Source: Rhizobiaceae bacterium
Lineage (GTDB): Bacteria > Pseudomonadota > Alphaproteobacteria > Rhizobiales > Rhizobiaceae
Assembly (NCBI GenBank): GCA_016763155.1
Contig: JAESUH010000187.1
Coordinates: 1 to 32,774 of the forward strand
Direction of reading: 5' to 3'
DNA: 32,774 bases
Each line of letters begins with the position of its first letter. The first letter of the stretch is position 1. The notes beneath the pieces were generated by a model. That model was given only the letters and a program-made list of their open reading frames with translations. It had not been told where the DNA came from and did not search any database. A program made the position numbers and the translations under genes. This document shows, in pieces, positions 3,460 through 10,937 of the stretch.

Positions 3460-4299
3460 TTAAAGCTGAATAACATCGCCCTCGCGGGCGACTCCGCTCT
3501 TGGGTTGGGTCTTTTTGATTTCGGCTTCAATCAGGTCCAGTTCGCTATCAACGCGAAATGGCATGTGATGATAAGCAAGATAGGCACCGGCATTGGCCAG
3601 TTTGCAAAGGCGCATGCCTTCTTCAAAGGTTGAGTGCCCATAACCGACAAAATCGGGAAATTCTTCATCCGTCAGGCTGCTGTCGTAGATGAATAAATCC
3701 ACATCCTGGATCAGCTTGATGATATCTTGATTAACCTCACCGGGGATGCTCTCTGTATCGGTCACATAGGCAAAGGAGCGCCCGTCAAAATCCACTCGGT
3801 AGGCGGTTGCTCCGCCGGGGTGATTGAGCGGTGCTGTGGTGATTCTGATTTCAGGTGTGAGATCAAATGCTGCCCATCGAGGGACATGGAGATATTCCAC
3901 ATCAGCTGTAAATACACTTGGTCCGACCGGGAAATAGGGAGGCCGCATTAATTCTTCCACAGTCTCCCTTGTGGAGCTGCTACCTTCAAGCGTGCCGCAC
4001 CAAACCTGAACGTTGAATTTGTCGCAAAAGAAGGGTGCAAAGAACGGGATGCCTTCCATGTGATCGTAATGGGCGTGGGATAAAAACAGATCAATGTTTC
4101 CCTTTCCAACGCCATTGCAAATCTTGCTGCCTAATTCGCGAATGCCTGTTCCTGCATCAAATATAATCGTATGGCCACCGCAGTTGAGTTCCGTGCAATT
4201 GGTATTGCCACCTGTGCGAAGATAAAGCTCTCCGGGTGCAGGAAGGGTGCCGCGTGTTCCCCAAAAAGTAATTGAAAATTCTTTTTTTGCTTTGGTCAA
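3460..4299 (-). CDS. Metallo-beta-lactamase-fold hydrolase, PhnP/RNase Z-like group
   Basis: This 279-residue protein has the binuclear-metal signature HAHYDH at residues 75-80, preceded by the strand IIFDAGTGIRELG. Further likely ligands follow: a His in LNHPGG, an Asp in YVTDTES, and late His residues in GHST and YHHMPF. The opening FWGTRGTLPAP is typical of MBL proteins that cleave phosphodiester bonds, such as phosphoribosyl cyclic phosphodiesterases and RNase Z relatives. There is no signal peptide, so it is cytoplasmic. It is the last gene of the minus-strand cluster, 50 bases after the cyclic-nucleotide-binding gene. A cyclic-nucleotide phosphodiesterase role would suit the neighbours, since some class II cAMP phosphodiesterases have this fold, but the sequence alone does not show the substrate. 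It converges with nlpD with an 18-base gap. Confidence 0.85.
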   Translation of the reverse strand: MTKAKKEFSITFWGTRGTLPAPGELYLRTGGNTNCTELNCGGHTIIFDAGTGIRELGSKICNGVGKGNIDLFLSHAHYDHMEGIPFFAPFFCDKFNVQVWCGTLEGSSSTRETVEELMRPPYFPVGPSVFTADVEYLHVPRWAAFDLTPEIRITTAPLNHPGGATAYRVDFDGRSFAYVTDTESIPGEVNQDIIKLIQDVDLFIYDSSLTDEEFPDFVGYGHSTFEEGMRLCKLANAGAYLAYHHMPFRVDSELDLIEAEIKKTQPKSGVAREGDVIQL

Positions 4300-4349: not shown

Positions 4350-4817
4350 TTAGCTTGATTGCGATTTCAGTTGTTGGCGTGCTTCACTGAGTTCTGCTGT
4401 GGTTTTACTCAGGCGCAGAGCAAGTTCACGCATTACTTCGATGCCCAGTTGCGGTGCGTCTTCAATCAGCCCCAGGAAGTGTTCTTTCTTGATTTTCAAT
4501 GTATCAAGCTCTCCCTCGGCTTTAATTGTCGCGGTCCTTGGCATGTCGCACAAAATTGCAATCTCGCCAATAAAATCATTCTCTGACAGTTTTGCAACCG
4601 ATACATCATTTCCCCCAATTGAAACGATAACATCTGCAATGCCGGATACAACAACATAGGCAGCGTCTCCCACATCTCCTTGCTTGAAAACAGTCTGTCC
4701 ATCGTGGAATACCTGACGGTCTGACGCAAAGGCAAGAAGTTTCAACTTGCCCGGATCGATGGCTGAAAACAAGGGTATCCTTCGCAGTAGAGTGACTTCA
4801 TCTTCAAGCGTGGACAT
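4350..4817 (-). CDS. Stand-alone cyclic nucleotide-binding domain protein
   Basis: This 155-residue protein is almost entirely one CNB (Crp-type) domain. It begins with RRIPLFSAIDPGKLKLLA, contains the beta-roll glycine segment FKQGDVGDAAYVV, and has a phosphate-binding cassette at residues 83-97 (FIGEIAILCDMPRTA). The Gly-Glu and the Arg that hold the cyclic phosphate and ribose (E85 and R94) are present, so it looks able to bind cAMP or cGMP. Unlike Crp/Fnr regulators it has no helix-turn-helix after the beta-roll; a charged, probably coiled helix ends the chain. It is therefore a receptor or regulatory subunit rather than a transcription factor. It lies 71 bases after the ABC-like gene and 50 before the MBL gene, in a cluster that also encodes a cyclase. 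Confidence 0.9.
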   Translation of the reverse strand: MSTLEDEVTLLRRIPLFSAIDPGKLKLLAFASDRQVFHDGQTVFKQGDVGDAAYVVVSGIADVIVSIGGNDVSVAKLSENDFIGEIAILCDMPRTATIKAEGELDTLKIKKEHFLGLIEDAPQLGIEVMRELALRLSKTTAELSEARQQLKSQSS

Positions 4818-4888: not shown

Positions 4889-7672
4889 TCAGACATTCAA
4901 CAATTCCTGAAATTGAGGTTGGGATTTGTTCATGTCGTCAGGATTTCCATCTGCAATCAGCTCCCCGTCAGAAAACAACAATACCCGATCAAATAACAGG
5001 GATATCTTTGGGTTTATTGGGACCCAGATTACACCGCAAGGGTGACCATCGGTATTTCGTGCACGTTTAAGCACGTTTTCAATGATATTACGCTGGCTAC
5101 GTGAATCCAGCGAGTTCAGGGCGCGGTTTACAATTAAGAAATCAGGTTTTTTCAACAATGCGCGGGCAAGGTGCAATTTTTGGCGCTGAATTTCTGAAAG
5201 CCGTTTGCCTCCGGTCCCGATATTGAAATCAAGGCCAATGTGGAAGATATCATCAGTCAAGCCCATTTCGTCGAGCAGGGCCTTGATGGCTTCATCCACC
5301 CGCCCGCTGCCTTCGGCAACATTGGTGGCAACACGGCCAAGAAGCACGTTATCCAGCACGGAAGCGGCAGGATTATAAGATTCCGTTTCAAAAAACGCCA
5401 CAGGCGGAACTTTAAGTTTGCTAAGAATCAGACGAATGCTTTTGCGAGCCTCCAATATGCGGGCGCGCAAATCATCGGTCAGGAGACCCAGACGGTTTTT
5501 GTTTTCCGTGTAGGAAAACGGAAGTTTCATGATCAGCAGGCGGTCTTCCTTGTCAATTTTTGATATGCTCAAATTACCAATTCGGGTCAACGCAGCCTTA
5601 TATTCAGGTAAATCTTCTGCATCCATATAGTTCAATTGATCGAAGAATGGATTATCCGGTGCCAAATCTCCAAACAGATCAACGGTGGTGGCAGCAACTT
5701 CCTTACCCATCTCAAAGAGAGCATCTTCAAGATCGTTTTCAACCAGAATACTCTGGACAATCGGATTGGAGGCAAGGTTTTCCGGTTTGTAAGCTGAATC
5801 AAGTGCTGTTCCAAACAGCAGGTTTTCAGCGACGCTGGCCTGTATATTATAACTATTTGGCTCAAATGGCTCCACAAAGTCTTCAAAACCCAACTCGCTC
5901 AGGCGAGCCTTGAAACGTTTTCTGGCAATGATCAACTGATCACACAAATCGCCATATTCTGCCGGGTCGAGCGTGCCGCGCAGTCCAAATCCGCGAATAT
6001 CTTCTTCCAGTTGAACATCCACCAATATTGACCGAATTTCTTCAATCAGTTCGGAAGGGCCTTTAACGCCTGCACGATCGTAATCGACCCAGTTTGCATT
6101 GAAATCCAATTCAATATTGGCAGCGCGCCGGGTCTCTGCCAGTTGGTTCATATATAGCGCTTCTTCTGCGCCAGTGAGATCACGATCCACAATTGGTTGA
6201 TTCTTGAGCACATAAGTAAGGGCGTTCAAAATTGAAGTCTGAGGAAAGAATGTACCGCCATCCACATAGGAAATGCGCCGTCCGGTAACATATTCCGGCA
6301 GGTCATCAATGGGGGTGCCATTCACATATACCCGGCCAGAGGTGGGCTTTAGAACTCGCGCCAACACTTCTGCCATGTGATGTGAGCCACTATTGACTGC
6401 GCCAACTATTGCAAGTTGTTCGCCGATATTAATGGTTACACTGGCTTTTTCAATCAGCTTGGTCCCGGTTTCATCAGTCACGGCAAGGTTTGAGATATCA
6501 AACCCTTTTGATAATTGAGGAACGGGGCCTGTTGCCGTTATTTGTGTCTCGGGGTCTTGTAAATCGTCTGCTGCAAACTGTTCCAGGATTTGTTCATAGC
6601 GGACTTCAACCGTCAGGCGACGTTGGTCATAGTCAATCAAGCCACGAATTGGATCCGGCAAATCCTTATAGGCTGCAATCACAGCAACCAATTGCCCGAT
6701 ATCCATCGTGCCAGTGATCGCCAGATATCCGCCCACTGCATAAAACAGGAATGCAAGAAACTGGATCAGTAGGTTATTGATGAATTTGACACCAAATTTC
6801 CGTTGAAATAGTTCAAACCGGATAAAATACAACCGTCCTAATATGTCGGAAATGTTTGCCCGCTCATAATTGGTCGTGTCGTTTGTGTGGGCATCCTGAA
6901 TACCATCAACAATTTCACCCAGCCGCCCGGCAAGTTCGCGTGAGGCAATCTGGCGTTGTTTGCCCAGTTGAATTAGCCGCCTGCGCAATCGCGGAACCAG
7001 CCATGCCTGAATAACCACGATGACAAGGGTTGCAAAACCCAGCATCGTATTTTGTAGAAAAATGAATGTAAGGCCCGTAAGTGCCTGGCCACCTAAAAAT
7101 AATGGAAGCGTATAAGCATCCCCGATGAATTCACCCATCGGTTCAACTTCATCCTTGATCATGGTGGCGACTTCGGAAGATTTTGTGCGACGGAATCGGG
7201 GCAGGGGATAACGCAACACCCGATCAAATAGTTGAAAGCGCAGACGGCGCAATATGCGCTCTCCCATGCGCCCTTTAAATGTATTGATATATAATTTAAA
7301 GAGGCCGTTCGCTGCTACCAGACCCAAAAAGGTCAGGCTAAGAGCCAACAAAAACGGAATGCGTTCCAGTTCAAACCCGGAAAATAGCAGAATGGGTTCG
7401 CCCAAAATCCAGTCGGGTACCGGCAAATATGTTTGGAGAAAATGACCGACATCGTCGGGACTTTCAAACCCGAGACCCTGAATTGGGCCGTTGACTATCC
7501 TCTTTGGCAGTTCGAGAGACAAAAAATAAGTCGGCATCGAAAGCAGAATGATGATGAGCATCCAAATCTGTTCTTTGCGCGAATGCCGCCATACATATTT
7601 AAGAAGATTGGGTTCCATCGTGTCCAGACTGCTTCTCTTTGTCAGTTTTCGGATAGTTTCAAATTTTTGCAC
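4889..7672 (-). CDS. ABC-exporter-like protein with degenerate ATPase motifs and an expanded, repeated NBD
   Basis: The protein has 927 residues; a type-I exporter half with one NBD is usually near 600. Residues 30-345 form a membrane domain with several hydrophobic helices. The NBD starts near 390. Its Walker A site reads VGAVNSGSHH, with Ser at the Lys position. Its Walker B-like strand FLIVNRALNSLD lacks the Asp and the catalytic Glu, the signature is LSEIQ, and the H-loop His is absent (VIWVPINPK). ATP hydrolysis is therefore unlikely. Between Walker A (424-431) and the signature (825-829) lie about 390 residues instead of about 100. Q-loop/ENxLxG-like segments recur near 475, 607 and 765, with ARK/ARA helix segments after each. 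The start is GTG at 7672, 10 bases after the cyaC stop; ATG at 7618 is an alternative. Substrate and role are unknown. Confidence 0.85.
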   Translation of the reverse strand: MQKFETIRKLTKRSSLDTMEPNLLKYVWRHSRKEQIWMLIIILLSMPTYFLSLELPKRIVNGPIQGLGFESPDDVGHFLQTYLPVPDWILGEPILLFSGFELERIPFLLALSLTFLGLVAANGLFKLYINTFKGRMGERILRRLRFQLFDRVLRYPLPRFRRTKSSEVATMIKDEVEPMGEFIGDAYTLPLFLGGQALTGLTFIFLQNTMLGFATLVIVVIQAWLVPRLRRRLIQLGKQRQIASRELAGRLGEIVDGIQDAHTNDTTNYERANISDILGRLYFIRFELFQRKFGVKFINNLLIQFLAFLFYAVGGYLAITGTMDIGQLVAVIAAYKDLPDPIRGLIDYDQRRLTVEVRYEQILEQFAADDLQDPETQITATGPVPQLSKGFDISNLAVTDETGTKLIEKASVTINIGEQLAIVGAVNSGSHHMAEVLARVLKPTSGRVYVNGTPIDDLPEYVTGRRISYVDGGTFFPQTSILNALTYVLKNQPIVDRDLTGAEEALYMNQLAETRRAANIELDFNANWVDYDRAGVKGPSELIEEIRSILVDVQLEEDIRGFGLRGTLDPAEYGDLCDQLIIARKRFKARLSELGFEDFVEPFEPNSYNIQASVAENLLFGTALDSAYKPENLASNPIVQSILVENDLEDALFEMGKEVAATTVDLFGDLAPDNPFFDQLNYMDAEDLPEYKAALTRIGNLSISKIDKEDRLLIMKLPFSYTENKNRLGLLTDDLRARILEARKSIRLILSKLKVPPVAFFETESYNPAASVLDNVLLGRVATNVAEGSGRVDEAIKALLDEMGLTDDIFHIGLDFNIGTGGKRLSEIQRQKLHLARALLKKPDFLIVNRALNSLDSRSQRNIIENVLKRARNTDGHPCGVIWVPINPKISLLFDRVLLFSDGELIADGNPDDMNKSQPQFQELLNV

Positions 7673-7682
7673 TTAATACAAG

Positions 7683-9461
7683 TTAGGTGCTTTCCAACAA
7701 CTTTTCCAGAGTTTTCATATTTGTCATGGCTACGACTTCAATTGGCATTGTAATATTGTGGACATAGATTTCGGAGGTTTCGCCCAATTTGTCGATTGCT
7801 TCTTTGCCACCTTTAATCTGGTCCAGTTCAGCGCATTTTATCAATTCGCTGGACGCGACGATTTTGCATTGAAGTTCTTTCGTCGCGGATTCCAGACGTG
7901 CCGCAACATTTACAGTATCGCCAATCGCAGTAAGCCTGCTTGGCGTTACCTGATCGGAGGTTTTGCCAATACGCCCCACAACGGCTGTACCCACATGAAT
8001 GCCAATGCCAATCTTGATTGGTTCATCAATATGCTGGGTAAGCATCTGGCTGACCCGCTCCGTTGCGGCCTGAGCATTACAAGCTGCATAAAGTGCGTCG
8101 CGACAAGCTTGGGACGGAGAAGATGACAGGCCGAAAAGCGCCATCATTCCATCTCCCATAAATTTATCCACATAGCCGTTTTTGCCCTCAATTTCGCGGG
8201 TGATTTCATCAAAAAAGCTGTTGAGAATGAAAACGATATCATAGGGCAAGCTTTTTTCAGATATTTTGGAAAACCCGCGTATATCCAAAAATAATACGAC
8301 AATTTCGCGCTCCACCCCCCAGCCAAGCGGGTCTGTATGGCGTGAAGTGGCAACGCTGCTTTGTGTTTCAATCAATGGGCGAATTTCAATGTCTCCGCGC
8401 ACTCTTGCCTGACAAGCAAGACGAATATCTGCGTCAGCGTTTAATTTCGTGAGTAATTTGGTTTCTGATTCCGTTGGCGGGCTCAGGTTTTCTTTGCCAC
8501 TAACCACCAGGGTTCGGCAGGTCGAACATCTTGCGCGTCCTCCGCAAACAGACATGTGGGGTATTCCTGCAAGTCTGCTGACATCCAAAATAGTGGAGCC
8601 CGGCGGTGTGGATACAACACTGCCATCGCCATAGGTAACGGAGACTGAGTCGCGAAATCTGGAAATCGTATAGCGAATGAGGAGTACCAATAATATGAAC
8701 ACTGCCATGCCCATGATGTTGTTTTGGGCAAAACTTTCCCACTCAGCCAGCGTTTCGCGGATGAATTGGATGATTTCACGAATTTCCTGATCTTCGGCTG
8801 AAAGTTGTCCTCCCCCACCATTTGAACCGGATGCCGAATTCGCAATTTTTTGGGCAGCATCAGCCTGACGCCGCGCGGCTGCAATCCAGCCAGAAATAGA
8901 AATTGCCGGCACCAGCACTGTCATACTCAATAATAAGGGAAAATATTTGGTGTAATTATTACGGATGCGCAGCCAGAAATGAATTCCGAGGCAGCCATGC
9001 GTCCAAACGATCAACATCAGCGCGGTTTGTTGTAATGCGGCACCCGACCAGATGAGCGATAATTCCTGAGAATAATTGACATCGATACCAAGTTCCACCT
9101 CCGCCCAGCGCGCGTAGACCAGATGGGACGCAAGCCAGAATGGTATTGAGAGCCCCAGTAGAATTTGCGCCCATTCCCATGCGGGTAGGCGGTAGGTGTT
9201 TAAGGTTGCAACCCGCCATAGGCCTAACCCGGCATGAACACTCAGGGCGCCGTATAAAACAAAGATGCCCACATAGGATTGCCAAATCGTTGCTTGCCAA
9301 ACCAGAACAGTTTCCATCGCAGCAATTGAAACATGGCCAAGTGCATGATTGAGGAAATGTAAGGTGACATAAAACATCAGCACCAGACCGCTAAACAGCC
9401 GCGCGCGCTGTAGGGCTGAGCCTCTTCCGGTCAGGTCTATGGTATCAAGACTGTTTGCCAC
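7683..9461 (-). CDS. cyaC: Membrane adenylate cyclase with heme-anchor-like helices and a 2Fe-2S domain (CyaC type)
   Basis: This is a 592-residue, three-part protein. Residues 20-195 hold about five to six hydrophobic helices with buried histidines (H35, H39, H76, H113, H155, H161), resembling the diheme b anchor of succinate dehydrogenase. One more helix lies at about 248-266. Residues 272-365 are a plant-type ferredoxin domain with cysteines C306, C312, C315 and C350 for a 2Fe-2S cluster. Residues 383-565 are a class III cyclase domain with metal-binding D393 and D437, purine-selecting K433 and T511, and transition-state N518 and R522, all as expected for a class IIIb adenylate cyclase. 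S. meliloti CyaC is known as a redox- and quinone-responsive cyclase with a diheme b anchor, so redox control of cAMP synthesis is the likely role. The start is GTG at 9461 with no clear Shine-Dalgarno site. It leads the minus-strand cluster. Confidence 0.9.
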   Translation of the reverse strand: MANSLDTIDLTGRGSALQRARLFSGLVLMFYVTLHFLNHALGHVSIAAMETVLVWQATIWQSYVGIFVLYGALSVHAGLGLWRVATLNTYRLPAWEWAQILLGLSIPFWLASHLVYARWAEVELGIDVNYSQELSLIWSGAALQQTALMLIVWTHGCLGIHFWLRIRNNYTKYFPLLLSMTVLVPAISISGWIAAARRQADAAQKIANSASGSNGGGGQLSAEDQEIREIIQFIRETLAEWESFAQNNIMGMAVFILLVLLIRYTISRFRDSVSVTYGDGSVVSTPPGSTILDVSRLAGIPHMSVCGGRARCSTCRTLVVSGKENLSPPTESETKLLTKLNADADIRLACQARVRGDIEIRPLIETQSSVATSRHTDPLGWGVEREIVVLFLDIRGFSKISEKSLPYDIVFILNSFFDEITREIEGKNGYVDKFMGDGMMALFGLSSSPSQACRDALYAACNAQAATERVSQMLTQHIDEPIKIGIGIHVGTAVVGRIGKTSDQVTPSRLTAIGDTVNVAARLESATKELQCKIVASSELIKCAELDQIKGGKEAIDKLGETSEIYVHNITMPIEVVAMTNMKTLEKLLEST

Positions 9462-9698: not shown

Positions 9699-10937
9699 AT
9701 GTCTCAAGACGCACTTCTAACGCCTATTCGGGAATGGTTGATCGACCAGTCTTTGGGTGATTCTGACATTGTTTCTCTATTTGAGACCCTATGTCTGCGC
9801 CTTACTGCGATTGGAATTCCCATTGTACGCGGCAGGCTTATTTGGTCTACGCTTCACCCACTGTTTCAGGCTGAAACAGTGATGTGGGATCGTGGAAAAC
9901 CTGCGGTTCTCGAACAATTTGTTCATCAGGATGAAGAGACCAGCACATGGTCACGCAGCCCGATGAAATACGTTATCGAAAATGAGATTGAAGTATTTCA
10001 GCGCAGGCTGGACGGTCCGAATGAGCTGCTTGACTATGACATGCTTCATGATTTGAAAAAGCAAGGCGTCACGGATTATCTTGTTTTGGCAACCAAGCTT
10101 GAAACGCCGCACACCAGAAGGCAAAATCAAACAGGTGCGCGTGGGATAATTGTGACCTGGGCCACCGACCGTCCATCAGGGTTTTCCGCAGATGATCTGA
10201 ACTCACTACAACAAATCCAGAAACGATTTGCTGTCGCATGTAAAACCCTTGTCCAGTCGCGTGTTTCAAAAAACATTACCCGAACTTATCTTGGCGATCG
10301 GGCCGGGCAAAGTGTGTTGGATGGGCAAATTCGCCTAGGTGACGGGCAAAAAACCAAGGCAGTGGTTTGGTTTTCTGATCTTCGCGGCTCCACAAGTCAT
10401 GCGGAAACAATGGAATCAGATGCCTATTTCAATATGCTCAATAGCTATTTTGAAACCACCGCTGGAAGCGTTGTGAATAATGGTGGAGAGGTGCTGGATT
10501 TCATCGGAGACGGTGTCCTGGGTATTTTTCCTTATGACAGTGATGAGGATCTGCCTGTGGCTGCAAATCAAGCCCATTTGGCGCTGGATCAGACAATCGC
10601 CCGGGCAAATGATGTGAATGCCGAGCGTCAATCTGCAGGTCTGCAACGCTATAAGTTTGGTGTGGGGCTGAATGTGGGAGAAGTCATGTTCGGCAATATT
10701 GGCATTCCTGAGCGCTTGTCGTTTTCTGTGATTGGCCCTTCTGTCAATGAAGTGTCCAGAATTGAACAAATGACTAAATTCCTGCAAAAGCCTGTTCTGG
10801 CTGGCAAAAAACTAGCTTCTCTTGCTCCAAAACGTTGGCAATCTGTGGGACCCCATAAATTGGAAGGGGTGCTTGAGCCAGTGGAACTGTTTAGCTTTAA
10901 ATGTGCGGCCAATGAATGCAGTTCCTCGCTCTTATAG
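9699..10937 (+). CDS. Soluble class III adenylate/guanylate cyclase with altered substrate-selecting residue
   Basis: This 412-residue protein shows no membrane helices. Residues 1-190 form an N-terminal domain with a sensor-like look (RLIWSTLHPLFQAET, then a strand-rich stretch) found in rhizobial cyclases; a GAF-like fold is possible but not proven. Residues 218-400 are the class III catalytic domain. Metal ligands D227 (FSDLRGST) and D271 (FIGDG) and the catalytic N350 and R354 are present. At the position that normally carries the purine-selecting Lys, this protein has Asp (D267, in EVLDFIGDG), and the partner position has Ser (S343). This could lower activity or change the nucleotide used. 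It is divergently transcribed from cyaC across a 237-base gap, so the two cyclases may be co-regulated. Confidence 0.88.
   Translation: MSQDALLTPIREWLIDQSLGDSDIVSLFETLCLRLTAIGIPIVRGRLIWSTLHPLFQAETVMWDRGKPAVLEQFVHQDEETSTWSRSPMKYVIENEIEVFQRRLDGPNELLDYDMLHDLKKQGVTDYLVLATKLETPHTRRQNQTGARGIIVTWATDRPSGFSADDLNSLQQIQKRFAVACKTLVQSRVSKNITRTYLGDRAGQSVLDGQIRLGDGQKTKAVVWFSDLRGSTSHAETMESDAYFNMLNSYFETTAGSVVNNGGEVLDFIGDGVLGIFPYDSDEDLPVAANQAHLALDQTIARANDVNAERQSAGLQRYKFGVGLNVGEVMFGNIGIPERLSFSVIGPSVNEVSRIEQMTKFLQKPVLAGKKLASLAPKRWQSVGPHKLEGVLEPVELFSFKCAANECSSSLL

Follow-up and report, generated by a model that had tools for sequence, protein, structure and literature searches.

The nucleotide-binding domain (NBD) of a 927-residue protein encoded in a 32,774-nucleotide stretch of Rhizobiaceae DNA, the whole of which is referred to as the window, contains three copies of the helical subdomain, an architecture that is near certain. 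To our knowledge, all canonical ABC proteins carry one Q-loop-to-signature helical subdomain per NBD, and the three units of this protein depart from that plan. The literature searched held no description of ABC-alpha helical subdomain repeats inside a single NBD. The protein is an ABC exporter relative by fold and fails ABC ATPase membership by its catalytic motifs. The initial annotation had proposed the triplication; the degenerate catalysis of the NBD and the cyclic-nucleotide partner of the protein were both absent from it. We read the protein as a cyclic-nucleotide-controlled pseudo-ABC membrane protein that probably acts on surface glycan, a reading with about even chances of being correct, in which nucleotide binding, docking, gating, and the glycan substrate are inferred.

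The pseudo-ABC gene (4889..7672, minus strand, GTG start) is real and conserved; a single scan across genomes collected at species level detected 324 relatives, up to 85% identical and full length. The family is currently annotated as ABC transporter and nothing more specific. Pfam matches to ABC_membrane (PF00664, 4.9e-19, residues 108-332) and to ABC_tran (PF00005, 3.6e-12), the latter split into residues 408-509 and about 810-920, place a transmembrane domain (TMD) before an ABC NBD on a single chain, which is the order of the type-IV ABC exporter fold. No Pfam match to an N-terminal C39 peptidase domain was obtained in the 927-residue protein, which is thereby not a peptidase exporter of the HetC/PCAT type. 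All domains lie on the minus strand and comprise the TMD (residues 1-370, 6563..7672), the N-terminal NBD lobe (residues 385-465, 6278..6520), the three helical-subdomain units, and the C-terminal NBD lobe (residues 844-927, 4892..5143). Unit 1 (residues 466-598, 5879..6277) consists of a Q-loop strand, the SILNAL helix, and the signature-like helix LIIARKRF; unit 2 (residues 599-757, 5402..5878) extends from YNIQASVAENLLFG to RILEARKS; and unit 3 (residues 758-843, 5144..5401) extends from YNPAASVLDNVLLG to LSEIQRQKLHLARALL and runs into the Walker B strand.

The six short motifs from which the triplication had been proposed were all recovered, with QTSILNALTYVL (478-489), IQASVAENLLFG (610-621), and PAASVLDNVLLG (768-779) as the Q-loop-like segments with their helix, and QLIIARKRFKARL (579-591), RARILEARKSIRL (736-748), and QRQKLHLARALLKK (829-842) in the downstream helices; the signature-like LSEIQ occupies residues 825-829. 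The Walker A-to-signature distance, previously estimated at about 390 residues, measured 398 from Gly424 to the signature Gly822, and in 151 full-length homologues its median was 398 (range 371-470), compared with about 120 residues in canonical NBDs. The proposal needed amendment in two respects. The Gln of QTSILNAL had been assigned to a Q-loop and is not the Q-loop Gln, the true Q-loop position (472) being occupied by Gly. Moreover, the triplication stands, but the repeated piece is the whole helical subdomain, from the Q-loop-like strand to the signature-like helix.

Self-similarity of the units was assessed by HMM-HMM comparison (hhalign) of 76 non-redundant homologues sharing <70% identity, with unit bounds U1 466-598, U2 596-757, and U3 755-843, and with 60 column-shuffled alignments per pair as controls. 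All pairs were related well above their controls: U1-U2 at P 2.4e-6 (score 40 vs a shuffled maximum of 20), to which the ARK signature-like helix adds another collinear stretch (P 5.7e-5); U1-U3 at P 2.4e-8 (47 vs 22); and U2-U3 at P 1.5e-14 (81 vs 18). The strongest internal repeat is register-shifted and aligns residues 555-660 (copy R1, 5693..6010, minus strand, signature-like helix 1 to Q/ENL helix 2) with residues 715-822 (copy R2, 5207..5530, minus strand) over 92 columns at P 1.5e-20 (score 108 vs a shuffled maximum of 19). Because of this shift, the last duplication event is inferred to have probably copied the stretch from the signature-like helix through the following Q-loop/ENL helix. 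Comparison of the units with TMD and C-terminal segments gave control values of 0.04-0.86, derived from a family alignment that still included one or two alpha-amylase ORFs (L018/L014); the sole strong control value arose when unit 1 was compared with the N-terminal NBD segment and was caused by an 11-residue overlap between these segments. When 398 genomes were searched with a profile of unit 2 alone, unit 3 of seven family proteins was matched as well (E 2.5e-7 to 8e-6), and of the matches listed at E <= 1e-5 none falls in a canonical NBD. A profile built from 5 canonical NBDs recognized unit 1 (8.8e-8) and unit 3 (2.2e-14), and unit 2 weakly (3.8e-4).

An AlphaFold2 model of the protein, built on 38 homologues, had a pLDDT of mostly 84-94 in the NBD. 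Superposed on the ComA NBD (3vx4; 2.1 A, Z 28.4), the modeled NBD (residues 385-926) covers each of its 239 residues, and according to this model it is composed of one complete canonical core with about 300 extra residues. Comparison of the full chain with the PDB gave Z 26-28 for MsbA, TmrAB, CydDC, and others; the top structural match was SUR (7s5v, Z 29.1), within 1 of ComA. For a model of unit 2 by itself (pLDDT 92), the four best matches among 646 PDB chains were ABC NBDs, all aligned between Q-loop and signature: ABCC4 483-551 (Z 5.7, 68 residues at 2.7 A), YbtPQ 427-498 (Z 5.0), CydDC 377-454 (Z 4.7), and CFTR NBD1 490-568 (Z 3.6, level with one unrelated chain). Foldseek with unit 2 alone returned no match at E <= 0.001. 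This absence, together with a best Z of only 5.7, is what can be said for regarding the three segments as coincidental matches within a single unrelated helical domain. That explanation can hardly be upheld: chance motif matches are rejected on the column-shuffled controls, whose maxima are exceeded 2-6x by the HMM-HMM scores; an insert consisting of one unrelated domain is rejected on the self-similarity and the predicted structure of unit 2, with its four best matches all in ABC NBDs; and the repeat is present in a sister subfamily as well. The self-comparison with its controls, the sister subfamily, the unit-2 profile, and the structure thus bear out an internal triplication of the ABC-alpha helical region, and the outcome that would have refuted it (no similarity among the segments, or an unrelated insert) was not obtained.

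The expansion is kept beyond the Hyphomicrobiales and throughout the Alphaproteobacteria. Of the genomes sampled, 69 of the 199 from Hyphomicrobiales and 97 of the 289 from Alphaproteobacteria contained full-length relatives (approximately one third), and the sole match outside the Alphaproteobacteria in the phylum sample was a 382-residue TMD-only protein. All 151 full-length homologues, from across the Alphaproteobacteria, are triplicated, with unit lengths (115-214, 154-167, and 82-86) that vary little, and no one- or two-unit intermediates were seen among these aligned members. In a sister subfamily (L170-L174) the three units recur in the same order with a compact U1, and its HMM-HMM values were 8e-7 for U1-U3, 1e-7 for U2-U3, and only 1e-3 for U1-U2; its TMD matches weakly. 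TMD-only relatives of about 380-435 residues, without NBD, were also encountered (L091:7833-9137, L092:7791-9053, L138:3929-5203, and L177:1-1143), one of which, from Sulfitobacter, adjoins genes for a copper oxidase, copper binding, and heavy-metal efflux. The TMD family thus exists also without any ATPase domain. A further family ORF of 1386 residues (L154:2492-4000) has about 500 residues N-terminal of its ABC part, without a Pfam match there.

The catalytic motifs of the 927-residue protein are degenerate. Walker A reads GAVNSGSHH (424-432), without the Lys of GxxGxGK[ST]; Walker B reads FLIVNR, with Asp replaced by Asn and Glu by Arg; the D-loop is LD; the H-loop His is missing; and the signature is LSEIQ, preceding RQK, instead of LSGGQ. 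Family-wide, the signature Leu, Gln, and Arg are mostly retained, and the position following the Walker A Lys is mostly occupied by Glu or Asp, not Ser/Thr. The Walker A Lys, Walker B Asp and Glu, and H-loop His were each found in none of the 81 Rhizobiales-set sequences. Among the 76 non-redundant members, the Walker A Lys occurs in 28 (followed by Ser/Thr in 3), the Walker B Asp and Glu together in 5, and the H-loop His in 14, and not one (0/76) has the complete five-residue ATPase motif set. Since a minority retain parts of this set, some members might still use ATP; L103 and L118 are among the few that miss mainly the Walker A Ser/Thr. Mean conservation is about 0.66 for TMD residues 121-360 vs about 0.46 for the NBD, making the TMD the best conserved part, which is the opposite of ordinary exporters, in which the NBD is better conserved than the TMD. 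These motif losses, combined with a TMD conserved above the NBD, suggest that in Rhizobiales, at least, the protein is a pseudo-ATPase, although this is judged from sequence in the absence of ATPase data. There is a hint that ATPase loss and partnership with a cyclic-nucleotide-binding domain may go together; the sample is too small for more.

This partner is a stand-alone cyclic-nucleotide-binding domain (cNBD) protein of 155 residues (4350..4817, minus strand; PF00027, 3.5e-19) without HTH, displaying the CNB fold with a phosphate-binding cassette of the form G-E-x-A...R-x-A (GEIAILCDMPRTAT). In 129 of the 151 members the ABC gene is followed by an adjacent cNBD gene of the same orientation, and in another 15 the cNBD is fused to the C-terminus of the ABC protein, so that 144 of 151 have it adjacent or fused; Pfam confirmed the domain in both fused proteins examined. 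The remaining seven members are mostly at contig ends, in short flanks, or missed by the adjacency filter. L103, L110, and L111, which include some of the least degenerate NBDs, have no cNBD gene in their short flanks. In non-redundant partners the cassette is well preserved (Gly 65/65, Arg 64/65, Glu 56/65). No cNBD gene was found in the flanks of the sister subfamily, of which the L174 member adjoins cyclase genes and the L171 member an MBL gene. That this cNBD binds cAMP or cGMP is only inferred; the cNBD of HetC is reported to bind ppGpp and not cAMP (PMC10986499).

Three further window genes are recurrent neighbors. One encodes an MBL-fold hydrolase resembling RNase Z and cyclic-nucleotide phosphodiesterases (3460..4299, minus strand); it matched phosphodiesterase family NF041851 at E 1.2e-6, with 28 bits vs a cut-off of 400, and was outscored there by RNase Z models, likewise below cut-off. 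The others encode class III nucleotidyl cyclases, one (7683..9461, minus strand) in which a membrane region at the N-terminus is combined with a 2Fe-2S ferredoxin domain and a cyclase domain, and a second one at 9699..10937 (plus strand). The hydrolase and cyclase genes are frequent neighbors, yet near only some loci. Of 92 loci, many of them with short flanks, 49 have glycosyltransferases (GT28-C and GT1/4 types) nearby; none is in the immediate neighborhood of the window pseudo-ABC gene. Cluster 6 of the neighborhood analysis proved to be an artefact, its ORFs lying antisense to GT28-type genes in 10-11 of the 14 cases. A DUF3095 protein of unknown function recurs near six loci (cluster 10; for example, L011:12075-13217 and L181:17260-18483).

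Orthologues of all five window genes are found within 31 kb on plasmid pRL11 of Rhizobium johnstonii 3841 (L181:208-31331, corresponding to 56.2-87.3 kb of the plasmid; cluster RL_RS29990-RL_RS30115), where the sugar genes encode four glycosyltransferases, a UDP-glucose/GDP-mannose dehydrogenase, an FkbM methyltransferase, and a predicted polysaccharide deacetylase; an Opp-type importer is also present. The dehydrogenase is probably pRL110056, a tag mapping inferred from gene order, it being the 56th listed plasmid gene, and from the enzyme class; pRL110056 is listed among the O-antigen genes that matter for colonizing roots (PMC11103875). The S. meliloti member is set among three glycosyltransferases and a cNBD gene. 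Its identity with S. meliloti MsbA2 (SMb21191) was ruled out by the differing gene surroundings, because the predicted four-gene operon of MsbA2, which includes an acyltransferase and two glycosyltransferases (PMC3687685), is unlike the neighbors of this member.

The observed fold, triplication, catalytic degeneration, cNBD pairing and fusion, and gene context can be accommodated in a mechanism of which the steps themselves are inferred. In canonical exporters the helical subdomain contacts the TMD and links it to the NBD. In the pseudo-ABC protein the TMD would be the conserved working part, and the NBD would retain its fold and a coupling role without the full catalytic set. The adjacent redox-type cyclases would make cAMP or cGMP, the MBL hydrolase would remove it, and the neighboring or fused cNBD may bind it. 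The nucleotide-bound cNBD might then dock on the enlarged helical region, a site for which only single-chain models are available, and docking could shift the NBD dimer and TMD from one state to another. The membrane step gated in this way would be tied to a surface glycan made by the linked glycosyltransferases. Against this reading, there are no biochemical data, a minority of members keep parts of the ATPase motif set, only about half of the loci have glycosyltransferases nearby, and the sister subfamily is triplicated despite the lack of a detected flanking cNBD gene. A more far-reaching version remains tentative and may well not hold: that these proteins form a widespread alphaproteobacterial ABC-derived class in which cyclic nucleotides replaced ATP as the controlling ligand, with the triplicated subdomain as receptor surface for a cAMP- or cGMP-bound cNBD that drives the TMD, so that the protein would serve surface-glycan production as an ABC channel, flippase, or receptor gated by cyclic nucleotides.

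Alternatively, the protein could be an active glycan or glycolipid exporter or flippase in which ATP is still bound or hydrolyzed via non-canonical residues and the cNBD is a HetC-like regulator; it might, for instance, form a heterodimer whose active site comes from a canonical half-transporter. The glycosyltransferase context would suit such an exporter, as would the preserved NBD core fold and signature region and the GxGK, LDEA, or H-loop His retained in some members; moreover, degeneration of one nucleotide site is a well-known feature of some type I exporters (PMC7756269). We nevertheless consider it unlikely, without setting it aside: the catalytic Lys, Asp, Glu, and His are entirely lost in the 81 Rhizobiales-set sequences, the Ser/Thr after the Walker A Lys position has mostly given way to Glu or Asp, and no canonical half-transporter recurs among the neighbor genes of the family loci.

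A dead NBD, constant pairing with a cNBD, and frequent cyclase and MBL neighbors would also fit a membrane scaffold that joins cyclase, phosphodiesterase-like hydrolase, and cNBD in a local signaling complex and neither transports nor gates. This is improbable, as a pure scaffold would give no reason for the TMD to be conserved above every other domain, and the cyclase and MBL genes accompany only some loci. Human ABCC4 exports cyclic nucleotides, and the cyclase and cNBD neighbors could be taken to suggest the same activity here; with a degenerate NBD that has no evident energy source, and with the glycosyltransferase context left unexplained, very little credence is given to this explanation.

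Bacterial cAMP has been studied mostly via CRP-type transcription factors, and the company that the pseudo-ABC protein keeps (a cNBD, cyclases, and polysaccharide genes) suggests that cyclic nucleotides exert control post-translationally at the membrane. Moreover, the family is a naturally occurring case in which to see what remains possible for an ABC TMD without a working ATPase.

Among known systems, the type-IV ABC exporters (MsbA, TmrAB, PCAT1/ComA, and CydDC) share with the pseudo-ABC protein a 6-TM ABC_membrane domain followed by an NBD in one chain; they differ from it in that the pseudo-ABC helical subdomain is triplicated and its Walker A, Walker B, and H-loop are degenerate. CFTR and SUR illustrate that an ABC fold can serve gating, as a channel or channel regulator, instead of pumping, but they lack the triplication, and a channel role for the pseudo-ABC protein is only hypothetical. 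CyaC of Sinorhizobium meliloti is, like the cyclase at 7683..9461, a membrane-anchored class III cyclase, whereas the extra 2Fe-2S ferredoxin domain belongs to the window cyclase, which looks like a redox-sensing variant of CyaC; cyaC adjoins TetR and LysR regulator genes, with no ABC gene mentioned (PMC10463352). Finally, HetC of Nostoc PCC 7120 likewise pairs a cyclic-nucleotide-binding-type domain with an ABC exporter protein. In HetC the cNBD is N-terminal and combined with a C39 peptidase domain, whereas in the pseudo-ABC family it is separate or C-terminal and C39 is lacking; moreover, HetC needs its catalytic Glu, while the pseudo-ABC catalytic residues are lost. The requirement of the cNBD for ABC exporter function in HetC provides a precedent for the pairing described here (PMC10986499).
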